Of a DNA stretch of 64,000 nucleotides, positions 15,683 to 24,748 are shown piece by piece (the first letter of the stretch is position 1; each line of letters starts with the position of its first letter). This DNA is from Mesorhizobium sp. NZP2077. GTDB taxonomy: Bacteria; Pseudomonadota; Alphaproteobacteria; Rhizobiales; Rhizobiaceae. The stretch spans positions 868,001-932,000 of the forward strand of contig NZ_CP051293.1 of NCBI RefSeq assembly GCF_013170805.1, read 5' to 3'. Position numbers and translations under genes: made by a program. The notes beneath the pieces were generated by a model. It saw only the letters and a program-made list of their open reading frames with translations, was not told the DNA's origin and did no database searches.

Positions 15683-16111
15683 ATGCTCAGTGAAGCCGAA
15701 CAGGCGCTGCTTTCCCTGCTGCGTTCCAACGCCCGCGCCTCGACGGCCGAGCTGGCGAGGCAGCTCGGCGTATCGCGCACGACGGTGCAGAGCCGGATCG
15801 AGCGGCTGGAACAGCGCGGCATCATATCAGGCTATGGCGTCAAACTGTCCGCGGACTATGAGCAGGGGCTGGTCAAGGCGCATGTGCTGCTCACTGTGAC
15901 GCCCAAGCTTGCCGACAAGGTGGTGCGGGCTTTGCAGGCGTTGCCGCCGGTGCGGACGCTGCACTCCGTCAGCGGCAATTTCGACATGATCGTCATCGTC
16001 GACGCACCGTCGATCCGCGACCTCGACGCGCTGCTCGACCAGATCGGCGCCATGGATGGAGTCGAGCGGACCGCGTCGTCGATCATCCTGTCGACGCGCA
16101 TAGACAGATGA
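15683..16111 (+). CDS. Lrp/AsnC-family transcriptional regulator
   Basis: 142 residues. N-terminal winged helix-turn-helix (STAELARQLGVSRTTVQSRI at about 20-39) and a C-terminal RAM ligand-binding domain with LHSVSGNFDMIVIVDA. Lrp-type proteins bind small effectors, usually amino acids, and control nearby genes. Divergent orientation with the saccharopine-dehydrogenase-like gene suggests local control of it. Confidence 0.93.
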   Translation: MLSEAEQALLSLLRSNARASTAELARQLGVSRTTVQSRIERLEQRGIISGYGVKLSADYEQGLVKAHVLLTVTPKLADKVVRALQALPPVRTLHSVSGNFDMIVIVDAPSIRDLDALLDQIGAMDGVERTASSIILSTRIDR

Positions 16112-16172: not shown

Positions 16173-16188
16173 CTTACAAATTTGTAAG
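16173..16188. promoter_or_regulatory. 16-bp palindrome CTTACAAATTTGTAAG (box 1 of three)
   Basis: A perfect palindrome 128 bases before the 49-residue membrane peptide that heads the glycosyltransferase cluster. Boxes with the same CTTAC-N6-GTAAG frame occur at 20440 and 23970 (the latter with one mismatch). Proposed target of the response regulator at 21855-22538 (inference). Confidence 0.6.
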
Positions 16189-16316
16189 AAACCGGCAAAT
16201 CTCCCGTATGTTCATGGGCGCATTGTGCTGCGCGGGCCGTTGATGACTATAGTCGACGAAAGTCGAAAGCCCGTCCAAAAGAATCATAATTATTGTTCTT
16301 GGTTCGGTTTTCACAA

Positions 16317-16466
16317 ATGCTGTACAGAATTCACTCCGCCAGTTTGAGCAAACTGGCCTTGGTCGCCACTTCCCTGGTGACTTTTACCCTCGTTTTATTG
16401 TCGACCGTTGTGTCCGGCTATGGGTTTGCGGCCGATGAGCGCTGGCACATGCTGTGGATGTGGTAG
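16317..16466 (+). CDS. 49-residue putative membrane peptide
   Basis: A small frame from ATG at 16317 to TAG at 16466. The product begins MLYRIHSASLSKLALVATS, has one hydrophobic stretch of about 20 residues (LVTFTLVLLSTVVSGYGFA) that could be a membrane anchor or signal peptide, and ends ADERWHMLWMW. It overlaps the start region of the following glycosyltransferase by 13 bases, which would allow translational coupling. No family was recognised. Codon use is ordinary, and the main doubt is its small size. Confidence 0.5.
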   Translation: MLYRIHSASLSKLALVATSLVTFTLVLLSTVVSGYGFAADERWHMLWMW

Positions 16467-18139
16467 ACAGGATGCGGGCTTTCCAGGCGTCGGCCGCCAA
16501 CTACGGTCCGACGGCCGGTTCGCCGGACGTGGCGGAGACAGGGATAGCCAAAGGCCTTTTTGGCTGGTCCTCCGGGCAAGGCCTTGCACCCGCCTCTCCG
16601 GTTTTGCAGATGCTCTTCCTGGTCGGAGCGTTCCTGATCTTCAGGATAGGGCTTGCGTCGGTCATCCCACTGTCGATCGACGAAGCCTATGCGGTGGTGG
16701 TGTCGCGCAGCCATTCGCTATCCTATTTCGATCATCCGCCGCTCGGCTTCGCGCTTGCCCGCTTCATGGCGGATATGTCCGGCTGCGAATGCCGGCTTGT
16801 GGTGAGGCTTCCCTATGTCTTGCTCGGCTCTGCGTCGGCGCTGTTGCTGTTTGCGCTGACGAGATACACCTATGGCGTCACTGCCGCATTCTGGGCCGTG
16901 GCCTGGTACAGCGTCGCGCCGTTCTTTCTCATATCGGCCGGCCATTTCGTCGTTCCCGACGGGCCGCTCGATTTCTTTCTGCTGGCAACCGCTTGCCTGG
17001 CCGTGCCGATGCTTTTCGGTGCAGAGCCGCGCTTCGCGTTCCTGCGCTGGTGCGCGGCCGGCGTGGCGCTCGGGTTGGCACTGATGTCGAAATATCAGGC
17101 CGGTCTGTTTTGCCTTTCCGCCCTGCTAGTGCTGCTGTTGACGAAATCTGGCCGGGACCAGCTGCGGACTGCCGGGCCATGGATGGCCGGCGCCATCGCT
17201 GCACTTGGCCTGCTGCCGGTCGTTCTGTGGAACATGGACCATGACTGGATCTCGCTGGCGTTCCAATCCGGGCGGGGTACGGCCAATGCCGGCTATCTCC
17301 TGCATCCCGGCAATCTCGCCGTCACGTTGCTCGGCCAGGCGCTGTATGTTTGGCCGCCGCTCTGGGCGGTCGCCATGGCGTGCCTGTGGCGAGGCGCCTC
17401 GGGCGACACGGAGGCCGGTCGCCTCTTCGTGCTGCTTTCGGCGCCTTCCATCATATTCTTCGATCTGATCGCCCTGTTCAGCGCCCACTCGCTGCCGCAC
17501 TGGTCGATGAGTGGCTTCCTGTTGGCCTTTCCGCTCGTCGGTCAATGGTGCGGCGCATTCTCATTGCGCAGGCCAAGACTGCTCGTGGTGTCCATTGTCG
17601 TCGCCGCTGTCGTCGTTCCGCTTCTGGCCACCGGGTTTGCGGTGCAGGCGACAACCGCCGCATTGACCAGGCCATTCTTCCAGAGTGCGCCGAAGTTCGA
17701 CGTCAACTGGCAGCTCGTCGACTGGTCCGCACTGACGGACAGCAAGGTCGCCGACGAGATCAGGCGCGCCAACGGATATGTCGTTGCCTCGAACTGGATG
17801 CAGGCGGCAAAGCTGTCCTACGAGCTTGGCCCGAACATTCCGATCGAGGTGCTTCCCGGCGACCCGCGTCATTTCCAGTTCATGGACAACGGGCCCCTTG
17901 CCGGCCGAAACACCGGCTTTTTCATTGCCGCCCTGAGTTTCAGCGACGAGGCTGCTCATGAACAGGACTATCGCGTCAGTCTCGGCGGCCTGTTCGTCGT
18001 CGACGGCGACGCCCGGCACATAACGCAGCGGCTCTCCGGATTTCCGGTCTTCGACATGTTGGTCCTGCCGGTGAAACCCGCGCGGCCGCCGCTCCCCAAG
18101 GCCGACGTCCAGCCGGCTGAAGGCGTGAAACTGCCATGA
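16454..18139 (+). CDS. Glycosyltransferase family 39-type integral membrane protein
   Basis: 561 residues from a GTG at 16454 (ATG at 16472 possible). Polytopic, with about ten hydrophobic segments. The motif SIDEAYAVVVSRSHSLSYFD (D76, E77) followed by HPPL is the acidic loop of polyprenyl-phosphate-sugar transferases such as ArnT and PMT enzymes. It probably moves a sugar from a polyprenyl carrier to an envelope acceptor. It overlaps the next gene by four bases (ATGA); that gene could make the carrier-linked sugar. Acceptor and sugar are unknown. Confidence 0.88.
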   Translation: MDVVDRMRAFQASAANYGPTAGSPDVAETGIAKGLFGWSSGQGLAPASPVLQMLFLVGAFLIFRIGLASVIPLSIDEAYAVVVSRSHSLSYFDHPPLGFALARFMADMSGCECRLVVRLPYVLLGSASALLLFALTRYTYGVTAAFWAVAWYSVAPFFLISAGHFVVPDGPLDFFLLATACLAVPMLFGAEPRFAFLRWCAAGVALGLALMSKYQAGLFCLSALLVLLLTKSGRDQLRTAGPWMAGAIAALGLLPVVLWNMDHDWISLAFQSGRGTANAGYLLHPGNLAVTLLGQALYVWPPLWAVAMACLWRGASGDTEAGRLFVLLSAPSIIFFDLIALFSAHSLPHWSMSGFLLAFPLVGQWCGAFSLRRPRLLVVSIVVAAVVVPLLATGFAVQATTAALTRPFFQSAPKFDVNWQLVDWSALTDSKVADEIRRANGYVVASNWMQAAKLSYELGPNIPIEVLPGDPRHFQFMDNGPLAGRNTGFFIAALSFSDEAAHEQDYRVSLGGLFVVDGDARHITQRLSGFPVFDMLVLPVKPARPPLPKADVQPAEGVKLP

Positions 18140-19296
18140 ACCACGCGGCCTCCCAGCATGGCGCCGTGGCGCTTGCAACGGACAGCGCATTTCCCGTCGC
18201 GGCCCGGCATGGCGGCCCGGAATTGACGCTCGTGGTTCCGACACTGAACGAGCGCGCCAATATCGGCCTGCTGGTGGCGCGGCTGCGGCAATCGCTGGCA
18301 CGCATCGACTGGGAAGTGGTCTTTGTCGACGACGATTCGAAGGATGGCACGATCCTGGCGGTTCGTGACATTGCGGCAGGCGATCATCGCGTTCGCGGCA
18401 TCCGGCGTATTGCCAGGCGCGGTCTTGCCGGTGCCTGCCTCGAGGGCATCCTGTCGAGCTCGGCACCAATCGTCGCCGTGATGGACGGAGACCTGCAGCA
18501 TGACGAAACCTGTCTGTCCGCCATGTTCGCGATCCTGCGGCGTGGCGAAGCCGATCTGGTGATTGCCAGCCGTTACCAGGGCGATGGCAGTGCCCTTGGC
18601 GGATTTAGCAGGCTGCGGTCGAGCATTAGCCGGCTGGCGACGCGTCTTGCGCGCCTGCTTCTGAGAACGCCGGTCGATGATCCGATGAGCGGGTTCTTCA
18701 TGTTGCGCAGGGAAATCGTTGACGCGGTGGCCCCGCGACTGTCGCGGCAAGGGTTCAAGATCCTGCTCGACATTGTCGCGTCTTCGCCAGCCACCATCAG
18801 GATCAAGGAAATTCCCTACGTGTTTGGCCCGCGCCTGCACGGACAGAGCAAGCTCGACTCCCTGGTCGCGCTTGAATATGCCGGTCTGCTGGTCGCGAAA
18901 ATGTCGGGAGACCTGATTTCGACGCGCTTCCTTGCCTTTGGCCTGGTCGGATCCGCCGGCGTTGCCGTCCATCTCGGGGTCCTGCATGCGTTGCTGCCGC
19001 ACGGACTGTCCTTTGCCGTCGCCCAGACAGTCGCCATGTTCACCGCGATGGCCTTCAACTACACGCTGAACAACAGCTTCACCTATCGCGACCAGCGCCG
19101 TCGCGGCTGGCGATTCTTGACCGGCTTGCTGATGTTCGCGGCGCTGTGCAGCTTTGGCGTCGTGGCAGGTGTCGGCGTGTCGACGCTTCTCTATAGCAGC
19201 CACTCACGCTGGTGGGTCGCCGGCCTTGCCGGCGCTGTCGTCGGCTCTGCGTGGAACTACATCACCAATTCCGCCATCACCTGGCGCCGCCAATAG
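18136..19296 (+). CDS. Dolichol-phosphate-mannose-synthase-like GT2 with C-terminal GtrA domain
   Basis: 386 residues. N-terminal GT-A fold with LTLVVPTLNERANIGLLV, the metal-binding FVDDDSKDGT and MDGDLQHDE, and SRYQGDGSALGG, as in polyprenyl-phosphate mannosyl/glucosyl transferases. The C-terminal about 130 residues form a GtrA-like domain with four hydrophobic helices (RFLAFGLVGSAGVAVHLGVL, AFNYTLNNSFTYR). Expected to load a sugar on a polyprenyl phosphate and help it cross the membrane for the GT39-type enzyme just upstream. Confidence 0.92.
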   Translation: MNHAASQHGAVALATDSAFPVAARHGGPELTLVVPTLNERANIGLLVARLRQSLARIDWEVVFVDDDSKDGTILAVRDIAAGDHRVRGIRRIARRGLAGACLEGILSSSAPIVAVMDGDLQHDETCLSAMFAILRRGEADLVIASRYQGDGSALGGFSRLRSSISRLATRLARLLLRTPVDDPMSGFFMLRREIVDAVAPRLSRQGFKILLDIVASSPATIRIKEIPYVFGPRLHGQSKLDSLVALEYAGLLVAKMSGDLISTRFLAFGLVGSAGVAVHLGVLHALLPHGLSFAVAQTVAMFTAMAFNYTLNNSFTYRDQRRRGWRFLTGLLMFAALCSFGVVAGVGVSTLLYSSHSRWWVAGLAGAVVGSAWNYITNSAITWRRQ

Positions 19297-19412
19297 ACCG
19301 GTTCACCGTTTCACGGAAACGCATAACCTCTCTATTTCTTTTGTTCCACACAAGTCGGACGGAAAACCATCACGCACTTTCCAGGACTTGCTCTGACCGA
19401 GGCCAACCACGC

Positions 19413-19964
19413 ATGCTCAAACTCGACGCCGCGCTGACTGCCTGGACCAACACATGGGCCGGACACGCTCCGATGCTCGATACCGTGATGATTGGCATAT
19501 CGACGGCAGGCGTGCCTCTGCTCGTGCTGGCCGTGGTGTCGCAGTGGTGGCTGTCGCGCGCCGATCCGGCCATCCGTCATGTCTTGATAGCGGCCGGCAC
19601 GTCGTTTCTTCTGGGGCTTGGCATCAACCAGCTGATCTTGCTGTTCGTGCAAAGGGCCCGCCCCTACGAAGCAGATGTCACGCATCTGATCATCGATAGA
19701 ACCGTCGACTTCTCGTTCCCCTCAGACCACGCGACGGCAAGCTTCGCCATCGCGGCGGCCTTTGTCGTCCACGGGCTCTCGCGGCGTGGGTTTGGCTTCC
19801 TTGCGGCCGCGCTGCTGATTGGATTGTCGCGTGTCTATCTCGGGACCCACTATGTCAGCGATGTTCTGGGCGGCGCCATGACCGGCTTTCTGGCCGCAGC
19901 GCTGGTGCGCCTTGCGTATCGGGAAAACACCCGGCTCGATCGCCTGATTACCCGAATATTTTGA
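19413..19964 (+). CDS. PAP2-family membrane phosphatase
   Basis: 183 residues from ATG at 19413. The three PAP2 signature blocks are present: QRARPYE (variant of KxxxxxxRP), the SFPSDHATASF block (PSGH-like) and SRVYLGTHYVSDVLGG (SRxxxxxHxxxD). Members dephosphorylate polyprenyl diphosphates or lipid A. After two polyprenyl-sugar genes it may recycle the lipid carrier or trim lipid A; both are inference. Confidence 0.9.
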   Translation: MLKLDAALTAWTNTWAGHAPMLDTVMIGISTAGVPLLVLAVVSQWWLSRADPAIRHVLIAAGTSFLLGLGINQLILLFVQRARPYEADVTHLIIDRTVDFSFPSDHATASFAIAAAFVVHGLSRRGFGFLAAALLIGLSRVYLGTHYVSDVLGGAMTGFLAAALVRLAYRENTRLDRLITRIF

Positions 19965-19985
19965 CGAAGTCGGCGCGGATGACCC

Positions 19986-20010
19986 GCCGGTAGTTGCCAT
20001 CGCTACCGGC
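19986..20010. terminator. Hairpin between convergent genes
   Basis: An 8-bp stem GCCGGTAG/CTACCGGC with a 9-base loop, between the PAP2 stop (19964) and the DUF1344 stop (20038). No T-tract follows on either strand, so it is at best a weak or bidirectional terminator. Confidence 0.4.
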
Positions 20011-20037
20011 GCGCCTCAGATCTTGCGTAGTGTTCGT

Positions 20038-20292
20038 CTATTTGGCGGGCTGGATGCTCGACACCAGCGATTTGCCTGACTTAGTCGAATAGGTGACGAC
20101 GACCTTCTGGCCGGCCTTCAGCGTCTCGACCTCGATGCCTTCCGGCAGCTTCAGCGTCTTGCCATCGGCCAGCGTAATGGCGTCGCCCTTGGCATCGACA
20201 CTGACGATGGTGCTGGTGACCGTCCTGGCAAAGGCCGCGGTCGACATCGCGGTCGCCAGCACGGTTGTGGCGACGATGACGAGTTTCTTCAT
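20038..20292 (-). CDS. DUF1344-family small periplasmic protein
   Basis: 84 residues. A clear signal peptide (MKKLVIVATTVLATAMSTAA, cleavage after AFA) is followed by a beta-rich domain with VTSTIVSVDAKGDAITLADG and LPEGIEVETLKAGQKVVVTY, the usual DUF1344 layout common in rhizobia. Function unknown. It follows the two-component operon on the same strand, but box 2 at 20440 lies in the gap, so it may have its own regulated promoter. Confidence 0.82.
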   Translation of the reverse strand: MKKLVIVATTVLATAMSTAAFARTVTSTIVSVDAKGDAITLADGKTLKLPEGIEVETLKAGQKVVVTYSTKSGKSLVSSIQPAK

Positions 20293-20439
20293 GGTCTTTT
20301 CTCCTGATGTTGGTCGGGGTGCCGAACTGCTCCGGCATCGATATGGCCGCGACGCCTGCAGTCGCCAACCCGCTTCCCTCGGGATCGAGAGAAGATCAGG
20401 GATCATAACGTGCCGAGTTCTTGAGCGGCTTGCCGTGCC

Positions 20440-20455
20440 CTTACGGATGAGTAAG
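20440..20455. promoter_or_regulatory. 16-bp box CTTACGGATGAGTAAG (box 2 of three)
   Basis: Inverted CTTAC/GTAAG halves with a 6-base centre, 147 bases upstream of the DUF1344 start and downstream of the histidine kinase stop. Same frame and length as box 1 at 16173 and box 3 at 23970. Confidence 0.6.
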
Positions 20456-20487
20456 ACCAGCGGACGGAGAGCCCTCCACTTTGCCGG

Positions 20488-21858
20488 CTACTCCGTCGCT
20501 ATGGGAAAGCTCACCATCACGGCGAGGCCGGGCCCGGAGTCCTCAAGGGCAATGGTTGCGCCGTGCAGATCGGCGATGGCCCTGACCAGGCTCAGCCCGA
20601 GGCCGTTGCCCGGCGTCGAGCGGCTGTGGTCCAGCCGGTAGAGTCGCTGAAACACTTTTTCGCGTTCGTCGGCTGGAATGCCCGGTCCATTGTCGGCGAC
20701 GCCGGCAAGGACACGATCGCCCTGGCGCTCCAGCGACAGTTTGATCGTCGCGCCGGGTGGGCAATGGCGCAGCGCGTTTTCGACCAGATTGGCGAACATC
20801 TGCGTCAAGAGTTCGCGATCTCCGTGGATCCGGTCCGCCGTTGCGTGCTGCGGCAGCGATGACAGCGACTTGCCGTCATCCTCGGCCACGTCGGCGTAGA
20901 TCTCGGCGATGGTTTGCAGGATCAGGCCCAGATCGACATCGGTGAAGCGCGCCTTGCGCGCGCCGGCCTCGATTTGCGCAATGCGCAGCAGCGCGTCAAA
21001 GGTCTCGTTGATCTGATGGCCCTCGGCGCGCGCATCGGCCAGGTCGCCGGAAACGTCCTGATGCTGCCCGGCTTTGTCGGCCGCACCCTCCAGGATCATC
21101 TGCAGCCGGTTGAGTGGTGTCTTCAAATCATGCGCGATGTCGGCGCTGACCTGTTTCATGCCTTCGACCAGAGCCGACAGGCGGTCGAGCGCCGCGTTGA
21201 CCTGGCTGGAGACGATGTCGATGTCGTCGCCCTTGCCGGTTAGCGGAATGCGGGCATCGAGCCTGCCATGTGACACATCGACCATGGTGGCGGCGATGCC
21301 ATCGAGGCGGCGCTGGACGCGCGAGGCGAGCAGCGCGCCGCCGGTGACAGCCAGCCCGGTGATGATCAGCGTTGCCCAGCCGAAGCTCATCATCGCCACC
21401 GTTTCCAGTTCCTCCGTCTCGGACAGGCTGAAGGCGACGGTCAGATTGTTGCCGCCGACCGAACCGGAAAAGGCGCGATACTCCGTATCCGGAGGGACGC
21501 CGGGCAATATGGCGTCGAATGCCGAGAACCCGTCGGGAAGCCCGGCCGCGGTGAAGTTACCGGCCAGGTGGTTTCCGGTGGGGCCGGTCAGCGAAAACAG
21601 CTGTTCTTTCTTCGGGCTGAGCTTGGCGTGGCTTTCGATCGTGGCGACAAGGTCTTCCAGGTCGTTATCGGTATAGGTGGCGGCGACAACGGCGTAGGTT
21701 TCCTTGATGGTGTCGTCTAGGCGCTCGGCAAGATCGGCGCTCATCATCTGGTAGACGATGGCGCCCGACAGCACGAAGGCCAGCATGAACAGAAAGCCGA
21801 ATGTCAGCGCGAGCCGGAACGGCGTGCTGCGCAGCAGGCGGGACCAGGTTCCGGTCAT
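20488..21858 (-). CDS. Two-component sensor histidine kinase
   Basis: 456 residues. Transmembrane helix at about 16-36, a periplasmic sensor of about 110 residues, a second helix near 150-175, a HAMP region, the H-box ADIAHDLKTPLNRL, the N-box NLVENALRH, and G-boxes in DNGPGIPADE and GNGLGLSLVRAI. Class resembles the QseC/CusS/PmrB type. Its ATG overlaps the regulator stop by four bases, so the pair is coupled. The signal is unknown; the gene neighbourhood suggests envelope stress or cations. Confidence 0.93.
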   Translation of the reverse strand: MTGTWSRLLRSTPFRLALTFGFLFMLAFVLSGAIVYQMMSADLAERLDDTIKETYAVVAATYTDNDLEDLVATIESHAKLSPKKEQLFSLTGPTGNHLAGNFTAAGLPDGFSAFDAILPGVPPDTEYRAFSGSVGGNNLTVAFSLSETEELETVAMMSFGWATLIITGLAVTGGALLASRVQRRLDGIAATMVDVSHGRLDARIPLTGKGDDIDIVSSQVNAALDRLSALVEGMKQVSADIAHDLKTPLNRLQMILEGAADKAGQHQDVSGDLADARAEGHQINETFDALLRIAQIEAGARKARFTDVDLGLILQTIAEIYADVAEDDGKSLSSLPQHATADRIHGDRELLTQMFANLVENALRHCPPGATIKLSLERQGDRVLAGVADNGPGIPADEREKVFQRLYRLDHSRSTPGNGLGLSLVRAIADLHGATIALEDSGPGLAVMVSFPIATE

Positions 21859-22538
21859 GGTGCGAGCGGAGTGTGCAGGCTGTAGCCGGTGTTGCGGATG
21901 GTGTGGATGAGCTGGGTCTCGAACGGCTTGTCGATCTTGGCCCGCAGCCGGCTGATATGGGTCTCGACGACACTGGTCTTGGGATCGAAATGAAAGTCCC
22001 AGACGCGCTCCAGAAGCATGGTGCGGGTGATGACGCGGCCTTCGCCCCGCATCAGCACCTCGAGTAGGCTGAATTCGCGTGGCTGCAGGTCGATCGGCTG
22101 GCCCTCCCGCGTGACGCGCCGCATGATGAGGTCCATTTCGAGGTCGCCGACCCGCAGAACCGTCTTCTGCTCCTGCGCCGCCGGCCGGCGGCCGAGCGCA
22201 TGGATGCGGGCAAGCAGCTCGGAAAAGGCGAAGGGCTTGACCAGATAGTCGTCGCCGCCGGCCTCCAGCCCCTCGACGCGGTCGTCGATGCCGCCGATGG
22301 AGGTGAGGAAGATCGCCGGCGTGCGCACACCCGCGGCTCGGACCGCCTTGACCATTGACAGGCCGTCGAGACCCGGGAGCATGCGGTCGGCGATGATCAC
22401 GTCGTAATTGTCCCGGGTCGCCGCGAAAAGCGCGTCATGGCCGTTGCGCAAGAGGTCGCAGACATGACCGGCCTCGGTCAGCCCCTTGACGATATAGTCC
22501 GCCGTCCTGTGGTCGTCCTCGACAAGAAGAAGTCGCAT
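21855..22538 (-). CDS. OmpR/PhoB-family response regulator
   Basis: 227 residues from the ATG giving MRLLLVEDDHRTADYIVKGL. Receiver domain with acidic EDD, phosphoacceptor Asp in IIADRMLPGLDG, and the Lys in DDYLVKPFAFSE. C-terminal winged helix with VVETHISRLRAKIDKPF and TGYSLHTP. Closest in appearance to CopR/CusR/QseB-type regulators. Proposed to bind the CTTAC-N6-GTAAG boxes nearby (inference). Confidence 0.94.
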   Translation of the reverse strand: MRLLLVEDDHRTADYIVKGLTEAGHVCDLLRNGHDALFAATRDNYDVIIADRMLPGLDGLSMVKAVRAAGVRTPAIFLTSIGGIDDRVEGLEAGGDDYLVKPFAFSELLARIHALGRRPAAQEQKTVLRVGDLEMDLIMRRVTREGQPIDLQPREFSLLEVLMRGEGRVITRTMLLERVWDFHFDPKTSVVETHISRLRAKIDKPFETQLIHTIRNTGYSLHTPLAP

Positions 22539-22643
22539 CGCTGTCCCGGTTGATCGCCGATATCGGGCACAGGCTATCACCGGCATGGGCCCTTTCCTAG
22601 GATGGTCGCAAGGCCAGCCAATCCTCCGGGGCGTGCCGCAGGT

Positions 22644-23438
22644 TCAGTCCGACTCCAGCAGGATCTCGTCGGCATCGCCGGCGGTTCTTTTCAATGTCAT
22701 GTAGAGAACCAGGGCCGCGATGCAGCCGAGGAAGATCAGGCTGGTGAAGGTGGTGCCGAAGCCGAGGCCGCCATATTCGGTCGGCTGCGATAGAAAATCG
22801 CCGAAGGAGGCGCCGAGCGGCCGCGTCAGGATGTAGGCAAGCCAGAAGGCCAGGATGGCGTCCAGGTGGATGAGGTAATAGGCGAGCGCGATCCCCGCGA
22901 TGACGCCGCCGAACATGAGGCCGGACGCGAGATAGCCCATGTCGAAGCTCTCGGCGACGAGATCGCCGGCGGCGGTGCCGAGCGAGAAGGTGAACAGGAT
23001 CGCCAGCCAATAGAAGATTTCGCGTCTGGTCGTGAAGATGGTGTGGATCGACAGCGTCCGCTCACTGGCGTACCAGACCGCGAATGTCGCCGCGAGTGCG
23101 ACCGAAAAGGCGATCGTCGTCGTCTGCAGGCGTACGCCGAAATTGTCGACGAGATTGTCGGTGATCAGTGTGCCGACGACGCTGATCAGCACCACCGCCA
23201 GCCAGTAGGCCCAGGGTACGTAGCGTTTCTGCGCGAACTGCAGGACGAGGGCGACGATCAGGACGCCGGTCATGATCAGCGAGGTGACGGTCAGCCCGAG
23301 CCCGAGGTTGACGGCGAGATAGTCGGCCGCCGTCTCGCCCATGGTGACCGCCATCAGCTTGATCAGCCAGAAATCGATGGCAACGTCCGGGACCCTGTTC
23401 TGGCTCGGTTCGGCAGGCTGCTTGTTGGTCGGGAGCAT
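22644..23438 (-). CDS. DUF347/COG4705-type multipass membrane protein
   Basis: 264 residues, about eight hydrophobic helices. Repeated motifs KLMAVTMGETAADYLA and FSLGTAAGDLVAE, and a similar RPLGASFGDFLSQ, are the DUF347 repeat signature. Biochemical role unknown; relatives are often near metal- or stress-sensing two-component systems. It precedes the response regulator on the same strand by about 105 bases and is probably part of the same unit. Confidence 0.8.
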   Translation of the reverse strand: MLPTNKQPAEPSQNRVPDVAIDFWLIKLMAVTMGETAADYLAVNLGLGLTVTSLIMTGVLIVALVLQFAQKRYVPWAYWLAVVLISVVGTLITDNLVDNFGVRLQTTTIAFSVALAATFAVWYASERTLSIHTIFTTRREIFYWLAILFTFSLGTAAGDLVAESFDMGYLASGLMFGGVIAGIALAYYLIHLDAILAFWLAYILTRPLGASFGDFLSQPTEYGGLGFGTTFTSLIFLGCIAALVLYMTLKRTAGDADEILLESD

Positions 23439-23579
23439 GGCTGATCCTGAGGTTGATGGTTACGGCGCGATGAAAGCGACTGCGACGGGTTCATGCGATC
23501 CGCCCTCTATTTCATGCATGTCATGTCTCAATCGCTGAACACCCTCGGGTGAGCACGAGGGTGCTTTGGACAGGAAGGA

Positions 23580-23837
23580 CTACTTGCCCATGACTTTCAT
23601 GCCCTGGGCGAAGAAGTCGTCGGCGCGCTTGTCGTCATCCGCGTTGCAGCGTTCGATGCCCTTGGTCTCCAGTTCCGAGACCTTGTTCTTGTCGGCGTCG
23701 TTGAGCTTGGCCGTAGCCTCCGCTGCGCGCAGTGCCTTCAGCGTCTCCTCGCAAGGCGCCGGCGCCGCGTAAACGGTGGAAATCGAGGCCGAGACAGCGA
23801 GGATGCCGACCGCGACGGCAAGTGCAAATCTTGTCAT
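23580..23837 (-). CDS. Small secreted protein of unknown function
   Basis: 85 residues from the ATG giving MTRFALAVAVGILAVSASIS; signal peptide ending near VYAA. The mature part is short and charged, with two cysteines (CEETLKAL and ERCNADDD) that could form a disulfide, and a helical stretch AAEATAKLNDADKNKVSELE. No family recognised beyond similar rhizobial periplasmic proteins. Box 3 lies 132 bases upstream. Confidence 0.7.
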   Translation of the reverse strand: MTRFALAVAVGILAVSASISTVYAAPAPCEETLKALRAAEATAKLNDADKNKVSELETKGIERCNADDDKRADDFFAQGMKVMGK

Positions 23838-23969
23838 GAAACCATTCCCTGCATGATGGCGGCCCCATCTGATAAAGGCGGTCCGGCTGCGATAATTGAA
23901 GCGGGCCCCTAATTGGCGGGCCGGCATCTCAACGATAGGGAAGCGACTTCACTCCAGCCTGTCTGCCGG

Positions 23970-23985
23970 CATACAAATTCGTAAG
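23970..23985. promoter_or_regulatory. 16-bp box CATACAAATTCGTAAG (box 3 of three)
   Basis: One mismatch in the left half to CTTAC-N6-GTAAG, and the centre AAATTC is close to that of box 1. It lies between the divergent small secreted protein (start 23837) and the methyltransferase-like gene (start 24113), about 130 bases from each start codon. Confidence 0.5.
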
Positions 23986-24112: not shown

Positions 24113-24748
24113 ATGACCTATGCTTCCCTCAAGCCGGTTTCAAAGGCTTTCGTGCAGCGCAAGCGGCTGATTTTCGTGCGGGCGGCGGCGGTGCTGGCGG
24201 TGCTGCTGCTGTTCCTCACCAAGCCGGCACTCGCCGAGGGCTCAAACGGGCACGAAGCGCTCGAATTCTTCGGCTTCTGCCTGGTACTCGCCTGCGTCGC
24301 CGGCCGGCTCTGGAGCATCCTCTATGTCGGCGGCAAGAAGAACGAGGAGCTGGTTTCGACGGGGCCGTTCTCGATGAGCCAGAACCCGCTCTATTTCTTT
24401 TCGACGCTCGGGGCGGTCGGCATCGGTCTGCTCTACGGCTCGGCTTTCGCCGCCCTGGCGCTCGGCCTCGCCAGCTTCTTCATCTTCCGCGTCACGGCGC
24501 GCAAGGAAGCGGAATATCTGCTGGGCAAGTTCGGCCCCGCCTATCTTGCCTACATCAAAAGAACGCCAAGGTTCTGGCCGAACCCGCTGCTCTACCGCGA
24601 CAATGACGAGCTGCAGTTCTCGACGCGGGCGCTGAAGCGCACCTTCTTCGACGGGCTCTATTTCCTCGCCATCTTCCCGGCCATCGAGCTGATTGAGTAT
24701 TTCCGCGGGACGGGCCTGCTGTTCCCGGCCTTCATCACGCTCTACTGA
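24113..24748 (+). CDS. Isoprenylcysteine-methyltransferase-like (ICMT/PEMT family) membrane protein
   Basis: 211 residues from ATG at 24113. Several membrane segments. The family signature STGPFSMSQNPLYFFSTLG and the later EAEYLLGKFGPAYLAYIKRT followed by PRFWP match the SAM-binding part of bacterial ICMT/PEMT-like methyltransferases. The natural substrate in bacteria is generally unknown; a lipid is possible. It shares the box 3 promoter region with the divergent secreted protein. Confidence 0.82.
   Translation: MTYASLKPVSKAFVQRKRLIFVRAAAVLAVLLLFLTKPALAEGSNGHEALEFFGFCLVLACVAGRLWSILYVGGKKNEELVSTGPFSMSQNPLYFFSTLGAVGIGLLYGSAFAALALGLASFFIFRVTARKEAEYLLGKFGPAYLAYIKRTPRFWPNPLLYRDNDELQFSTRALKRTFFDGLYFLAIFPAIELIEYFRGTGLLFPAFITLY

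Follow-up and report, generated by a model that had tools for sequence, protein, structure and literature searches.

In a 64,000-nucleotide stretch of the Mesorhizobium sp. NZP2077 genome (NZ_CP051293.1, positions 868,001–932,000, forward strand; hereafter the window), three 16-bp boxes of the palindromic pattern CTTAC-N6-GTAAG surround the genes of a two-component system. Our comparisons indicate that these boxes are, with good probability, operators of the response regulator (RR) predicted at 21855–22538, a relative of the CzcR/CopR/CusR/HprR/UzcR class, and that they define an envelope regulon. A single regulon of envelope genes had been proposed in an earlier reading of the same DNA made from its letters (the sequence-only reading), and three findings support this proposal, in which most members are envelope or exported proteins: boxes in relatives stand ahead of both the same and unrelated genes, some targets are not linked to the regulator, and genomes that lack the regulator are nearly devoid of the motif. 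The weakest member of the regulon is a gene for an ICMT-like methyltransferase. A literature search, with most subscription journals outside its coverage, found no prior description of this regulon. It seems to be an envelope-centred form, not described before, of a regulator class that is already known. The novelty first claimed applies to the regulon and not to the box, which is of the known CzcR/CusR/HprR type.

Conservation of the boxes and their dependence on the regulator

Box 1 (CTTACAAATTTGTAAG, 16173–16188, plus strand) and box 2 (CTTACGGATGAGTAAG, 20440–20455, minus strand) are exact copies of the pattern, the former preceding a small protein and ArnT-like, GT2 and PAP2 genes, the latter preceding a DUF1344 gene. 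Box 3 (23970–23985, minus strand; CATACAAATTCGTAAG on the plus strand) is the window's copy at the regulator-operon promoter, reads CATAC on one side and has one mismatch; it lies between the ICMT-like gene and a putative operon encoding a small exported protein (SSP), DUF347, the RR and its histidine kinase (HK). A direct check of the window confirmed the positions and letters first reported for the three boxes, and the claim that the 64 kb hold no further copy stood at up to two mismatches. Exact copies number two in the window against 0.01 expected, and two or more occurred in 0/100 dinucleotide shuffles. Matches with three mismatches showed no excess (65 against 77 expected); because looser window counts are not above chance, the significance of the boxes rests on the exact matches and on conservation. 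The sequence-only reading had placed each box 127–148 bases upstream of a start codon, distances that fit the ATG codons at 16317 (a small open reading frame, ORF), 20292 (minus strand; DUF1344) and 24113 (the ICMT-like gene). A glycosyltransferase cluster does follow box 1, as it had stated, but the first ORF there is the small one of 49–57 amino acids, and the glycosyltransferase itself starts only at 16454 (GTG) or 16610 (ATG).

To follow the boxes in related rhizobia, we compared 40 regulator loci from 36 genomes of the same genus, totalling 593 kb; L109, L110 and L112, with 62–65% identity to the regulator, were left out of the orthologue count, leaving 37 loci with a regulator identity of 76% or more. 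The conservation anticipated by the sequence-only reading was found: the regulator-operon promoter carries a box with at most one mismatch in 33/37 orthologue loci, and no 16-mer in a 14-sequence alignment of the SSP/ICMT promoter is better conserved than the box (rank 1 of 261). Four loci (L102, L105, L113 and L124) have a box directly ahead of the RR gene. Throughout the 593 kb, 56 of the 57 matches with at most one mismatch fall between predicted genes, intergenic DNA making up 17% of the bases.

The full arrangement recurs in one genome (G071, locus L330), in which boxes precede the small ORF with its ArnT and GT2 genes and a group encoding an exported protein, two ABC proteins and FtsX; another box separates SSP-DUF347-RR-HK from the ICMT-like gene, and TTAC-N6-GTAA stands ahead of DUF1344. 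Boxes also accompany genes that are not linked to the regulator. DUF1344 of G054 (L325), with a box 77 bp upstream, is on a contig other than the regulator's, and contig 2 of G027 (L174), whose regulator is on contig 1, carries DUF1344, the exported-protein/ABC pair and SSP-DUF347, each with a box 83–147 bp upstream. Among loci examined in 30 of 94 matching genomes, CTTACGGATTGGTAAG was present in 8/8 with the gene for an ENPP-type phosphodiesterase and a box with at most one mismatch in 0/22 without this gene; here the box near a histidine phosphatase gene tracks the ENPP gene and not the phosphatase. Further boxes stand ahead of DUF535/VirK-like genes (L165 and L321 by Pfam, L407 by similarity), HlyD-type genes (L328 by Pfam, L398 by similarity) and, in four genomes, the gene of an NMT1-type binding protein (L161, L162, L326 and L328, the last of them examined with Pfam).

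Tallies over 99 genomes of the genus connect the motif with the regulator. Among the matches listed, 72 genomes have the regulator orthologue, G007 and G018 with regulator fragments only being counted among them, and 27, whose best match is a 53–64% identical relative instead, were scored as lacking it. The strict motif CWTACNNATTNGTAAG occurs, again among the matches listed, in 65/72 genomes with the orthologue and in 3/27 without, against 3 hits in 99 for the reversed control. The corresponding Fisher p of about 1e-13 overstates the independent evidence, because the species are related and because sites in repeats and in the regulator's own promoter are counted along with the rest. Among the three motif genomes without an orthologue, G014 has its site where a contig ends, next to the gene that usually neighbours the locus, the G097 site is 382 bp from an unrelated gene, and G067 is a 79%-complete draft. 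A close DUF1344 orthologue, sought as a negative control in 25 of the 27 regulator-free genomes, gave only distant homologues (best 47% identity) and hence no power, and no box was seen in the two stretches fetched from G075, which has two DUF347 copies without the regulator.

The 7.69-Mb genome of strain NZP2077 holds eight exact CTTAC-N6-GTAAG sites, two of them in the window. One lies between genes for an ENPP-type phosphodiesterase and a histidine phosphatase (genome position 2866932), one 60 bp (centre to start) ahead of a DUF2147 gene (5237530) and one between two divergent genes (212197). The sites upstream of kdpA (1883056 and 1883233) and 430 bp from a pentapeptide-repeat gene (2176074) are in or beside repeated blocks that recur in other genomes, and a 316-bp query around 2176074 matched one other long stretch of its genome, 1883127–1883257. 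We therefore rejected the idea that every genomic copy marks a target, these three being repeat-borne, and do not claim the kdp and pentapeptide-repeat genes as targets. Interspersed mosaic repeat blocks with CTTACGGATTCGTAAG or near forms, inside or at the edge, were seen at L017:7057–7249 and L018:6075–6090, which include these three sites, and in L155, L156, L158 and L160; such blocks could be a vehicle by which the operator spreads in the genome, or the resemblance could be accidental. L155 (G009) has three exact boxes (2988, 4665 and 6931) within 4 kb, around two small exported-looking genes; the first two boxes are flanked by sequence that matches repeat blocks, the third by sequence that matches L021.

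The regulator, its relatives and the genes of the cluster

The best NCBIfam match of the RR is TIGR01387, the model of heavy-metal regulators of the CzcR/SilR/CopR type, followed by CusR and then HprR models, all below cut-off. Because of this TIGR01387 score we regard the RR as a relative, not a member, of that family. It has the receiver and OmpR-type winged helix of the family and a TTAC-N6-GTAA-type box in its own promoter (33/37 loci), and it lacks both the curated score and adjacent metal-efflux genes. When other regulators were scanned with TIGR01387, 5/5 alphaproteobacterial ones fell below the cut-off, and those of Limnobacter and Stutzerimonas passed. A structural model of the kinase reached a pTM of 0.42, too uncertain for a reading of the sensor part, and most of the Foldseek matches listed for it were to kinase cores, including HprS and CusS; the periplasmic part of the kinase has one near-invariant histidine.

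Published reports describe similar sites. CzcR3 of Pseudomonas putida has the footprint aTTAC-N6-GTAAT, with a longer protected region and three half-site motifs at its own promoter (PMC8469834), and the CzcR site of P. stutzeri is ATTAC-N6-GTAAT (PMC8025907). These systems share with ours the core TTAC-N6-GTAA and a regulator that adjoins its kinase, whereas the cluster here has envelope and exported proteins instead of a metal-efflux pump, and its RR stays below the TIGR01387 cut-off. The E. coli CusR/HprR box, given as CATTACAAAATTGTAATG (PMC9302797), has 13/14 letters in common with the core of box 1, TTACAAATTTGTAA, but the E. coli targets described are the Cus efflux and MsrPQ/HiuH genes (PMC8249747, PMC9302797). 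UzcRS of Caulobacter crescentus, also with an alphaproteobacterial regulator of this class, is described as having the motif CATTAC-N6-TTAA and 66 activated genes, 52 of which have a secretion signal or membrane segment (PMC8963506); it differs in that the second half of the window boxes has GTAA, not TTAA, and in that UzcR targets include TonB receptors and an RND pump.

Among 47 named loci (of 80), an exact TTAC-N6-GTAA lies 68–78 bp before the regulator in six (Haliea, Aromatoleum, Limnobacter, Stutzerimonas and two metagenome-assembled genomes, MAGs), and the rest have one-mismatch forms or none. The UzcR-like TTAC-N6-TTAA was found 73 bp before the regulator in Limnobacter (L259) and at a few scattered places elsewhere in these 47, none of them in a Caulobacterales locus. 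In Thalassospira mesophila (L235), a PAP2 gene next to RR-HK is preceded by the identical 16 letters of box 1, and DUF347 by a box with one mismatch; in Rhodobacter sp. SW2, a one-mismatch box separates RR-HK from SSP-like/DUF347 genes. Judged by these boxes, the RR-HK-DUF347-box module extends past the genus.

Variants of the locus were seen as well. In L111 (4919–6961; G005:C1 near 5437418), RR and kinase form one 680-amino-acid open frame, a possible RR-HK fusion, behind a promoter without a box. Of the loci with a 62–65% identical relative, L110 has a sister regulator that adjoins multicopper oxidase, cupredoxin and CusF genes, with the box CTTACAAAAATGTATG, and L112 has CTTACAGATATGTAAG ahead of a porin-like gene. 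A Rhodobacterales UBA5972 MAG (L238:3437–5765) has a one-mismatch box in the vicinity of the gene for a DegP-type protease and of homologues of the small protein and permease that adjoin the ICMT-like gene in other loci.

Within the window, Pfam bears out the response regulator/histidine kinase pair with DUF347 that had been noted amid the boxes. The genes for SSP (23580–23837; signal peptide by eye, no Pfam match), the membrane protein DUF347 (22644–23438; PF03988), the OmpR-type RR that we propose as box binder (Response_reg, Trans_reg_C) and the sensor HK (20488–21858; HAMP, HisKA, HATPase_c) look like one operon, since they share the minus strand and are separated by gaps of 141 and 105 bases and then a four-base overlap. 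SSP is conserved in the regulator loci of relatives, and DUF347 is present in 59/99 genus genomes. On the plus strand behind box 1, the gene call and Pfam give an ArnT-like PMT_2 glycosyltransferase (16454–18139, with the alternative start given above; PF13231), a GT2 glycosyltransferase with a GtrA/DPMS membrane domain (18136–19296; PF00535, PF04138) and a PAP2-family phosphatase (19413–19964; PF01569), the top NCBIfam match of which, below cut-off, is undecaprenyl-diphosphate phosphatase. The DUF1344 protein (20038–20292, minus strand; Pfam) shows weak, sub-threshold CusF_Ec similarity. The ICMT-like gene (24113–24748, plus strand) encodes a PEMT/ICMT-like membrane methyltransferase that matches PF04191 above and ICMT below cut-off, with a weak LmtA match in the NCBIfam scan. 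An AsnC/Lrp regulator (Pfam) is encoded at 15683–16111.

PmrAB and PhoPQ are familiar two-component systems that control envelope genes of the ArnT and PAP2 types, and small membrane proteins such as MgrB are feedback partners in systems of this type. PmrA sites are direct repeats, and the PmrA model scores 163.6 for the regulator studied here against a cut-off of 330.

A third half-site and an overlooked, putative small membrane protein

Several promoters have a third half-site at +18 past the box, which is 22 bp, or two helical turns, from the second half-site. In the window it reads GTATG (16206–16210, plus strand), 22 bp past the second half-site of box 1; at box 3, the corresponding place on the side of the regulator operon reads GTGAA (23948–23952, minus strand), with two mismatches to GTAAG. 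In a tally of 56 box-to-gene stretches, many orthologous to each other, a third half-site within one mismatch of GTAAG was found in 6/7 small-ORF, 6/6 exported-protein/ABC, 5/9 regulator-operon and 2/9 DUF1344 promoters, at a background rate of 0.007. Box 1 is the only match of its own genome to the combined 38-bp pattern, which occurs in 27/99 genomes, all with the regulator orthologue, against 2 hits for the control. A -10-like TA at about +33 past the box would put the box centre near -50 relative to the transcription start; UzcR sites are reported 43 or 53 bp before the start (PMC8963506). Co-regulation of the ICMT-like gene is the weakest part of the predicted regulon, because its side of the promoter has no third half-site.

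The small ORF behind box 1 spans 16293–16466 (57 amino acids, TTG start) or 16317–16466 (49 amino acids, ATG start) on the plus strand, has no Pfam match, and encodes a protein with a single hydrophobic stretch (by eye) and the C-terminus DERWHMLWMW. Its dN/dS is 0.20–0.74 over seven aligned sequences (20/21 pairs with a finite estimate). Using a profile from six sequences, we found 15 copies in 14/99 genus genomes, all 14 of which also carry the regulator orthologue, and all 15 copies have a box with at most two mismatches upstream, starting about 90–150 bp ahead; one copy, in G029, is about 3 Mb from its genome's regulator. The ORF and its glycosyltransferase neighbours are separable: L087, L094 and L121 have the small ORF and box with no glycosyltransferase seen in the fetched stretch, and L100 and L123 have a one-mismatch box ahead of ArnT without an intact small ORF. 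Homologues form eight protein clusters among the matches listed, hypothetical or unnamed, the organism names shown being Mesorhizobium. Both the third half-site and the small protein are apparently new, as nothing that we found in the literature describes them. A fuller picture, in which this one-helix protein is always box-controlled, belongs to an envelope switch with a 38-bp operator and feeds back on the kinase as MgrB does, through its ...LWxW tail, is speculative, and we consider it doubtful as a whole.

Mechanism, rival explanations and the signal

In the mechanism that we favour, the kinase would phosphorylate the RR, and an RR dimer would bind CTTAC-N6-GTAAG; several promoters would offer a second, weaker site with its clear half 22 bp further on, next to the promoter. 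Bound RR would activate, rather than repress, transcription. It would control its own operon, SSP-DUF347-RR-HK, and as envelope targets the small membrane protein and, following it, the ArnT-like, GT2-GtrA and PAP2 genes, as well as DUF1344 and perhaps the ICMT-like methyltransferase; in relatives, the exported protein with ABC/FtsX, the ENPP-type phosphodiesterase and DUF535/VirK-like and HlyD-type genes may be added.

Several observations weigh against this reading. The genome-wide search that the sequence-only reading had put forward as a check gave no signal in its loose counts, with 33 one-mismatch places in the own genome (surroundings read for 24 of them) against 144 for the reversed motif used as control, and in the window, where only boxes 1–3 match at up to two mismatches, the chance mean is higher, at 5.2. 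The RR scores 262.7 against the TIGR01387 cut-off of 279.2, and the kinase 174.2 against 292.55 for its best NCBIfam match, TIGR01386. L111, L115, L116 and L122 have the orthologue and no box with at most one mismatch in the regulator-operon promoter, that of L122 having a box at two mismatches. The strict motif is absent from 7/72 genomes with the orthologue (among the matches listed), and relatedness of the genomes confounds both the presence of the regulator and that of the motif. The third half-site occurs in 0/6 ICMT, 0/2 ENPP and 0/2 NMT1 stretches, and within the window it accompanies box 1 alone, box 2 being without it.

Another OmpR-family regulator might read the boxes, most plausibly a 53%-identical paralogue (genome positions 5267188–5267850), or the two might share them. 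The best match of the paralogue is also TIGR01387 (240.2, below cut-off), the region of its recognition helix is similar to that of Haliea L255, where an exact TTAC-N6-GTAA lies 75 bp upstream, and E. coli CusR and HprR recognise one sequence (PMC8249747). Yet a box was found in 0/5 paralogue loci (L315–L319), and the 27 genomes without the orthologue hold a paralogue-type match while 24 of them lack the strict motif (among the matches listed), so that we think this explanation unlikely. Short palindromes of such spacing would also suit repressors of the TetR/MarR type, for which the two-component genes would merely be among the targets. We consider an operator of this or another factor kind very improbable, given that the class of the box, that of the regulator and the autoregulatory position all fit CzcR, which has been footprinted, and also CusR/HprR, that the regulator-operon promoter has the box in 33/37 loci, and that a third half-site at a distance of two helical turns fits dimers in tandem. 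Repeats raise the further question of whether the boxes are chance palindromes or interspersed-repeat pieces without a regulatory role: the sites at 1883056, 1883233 and 2176074 are in or beside repeated blocks, and similar blocks elsewhere carry CTTACGGATTCGTAAG. The 800-bp surroundings of the window's three boxes, however, matched none of the others among 19 sites compared, and together with the orthologous conservation and the shuffles this makes such an origin scarcely credible.

For the RR-operator reading, the signal is most likely a metal ion or other envelope stress. We give a metal alone even chances, other envelope stress being about as likely. The hint of a metal comes from the regulator class, from DUF347 as a candidate metal transporter, and from an OFeT_1 iron-lead permease that relatives encode close to the locus; DUF347-UppP operons are described as lead-induced in a Bacillus (PMC4531530). 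Against a metal speak the absence of an efflux pump from the cluster, with no metal-efflux gene among ten proteins scanned by Pfam over 15.7–24.7 kb, and the below-cut-off score of the kinase. The joint proposal that a two-component system of the heavy-metal class was co-opted as a general switch for envelope remodelling, with a 38-bp operator of three half-sites and an MgrB-like small protein, is tentative, and the odds are against its holding in every part.

The predicted regulon names concrete targets for an envelope system that seems not to have been described, in a genus whose members are nitrogen-fixing symbionts, and would tie DUF347, DUF1344, DUF535 and the small protein to one regulator. 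Its operator with a third half-site may serve as a model for the assembly of OmpR-type dimers, and a site best known from metal efflux would here serve other physiology.

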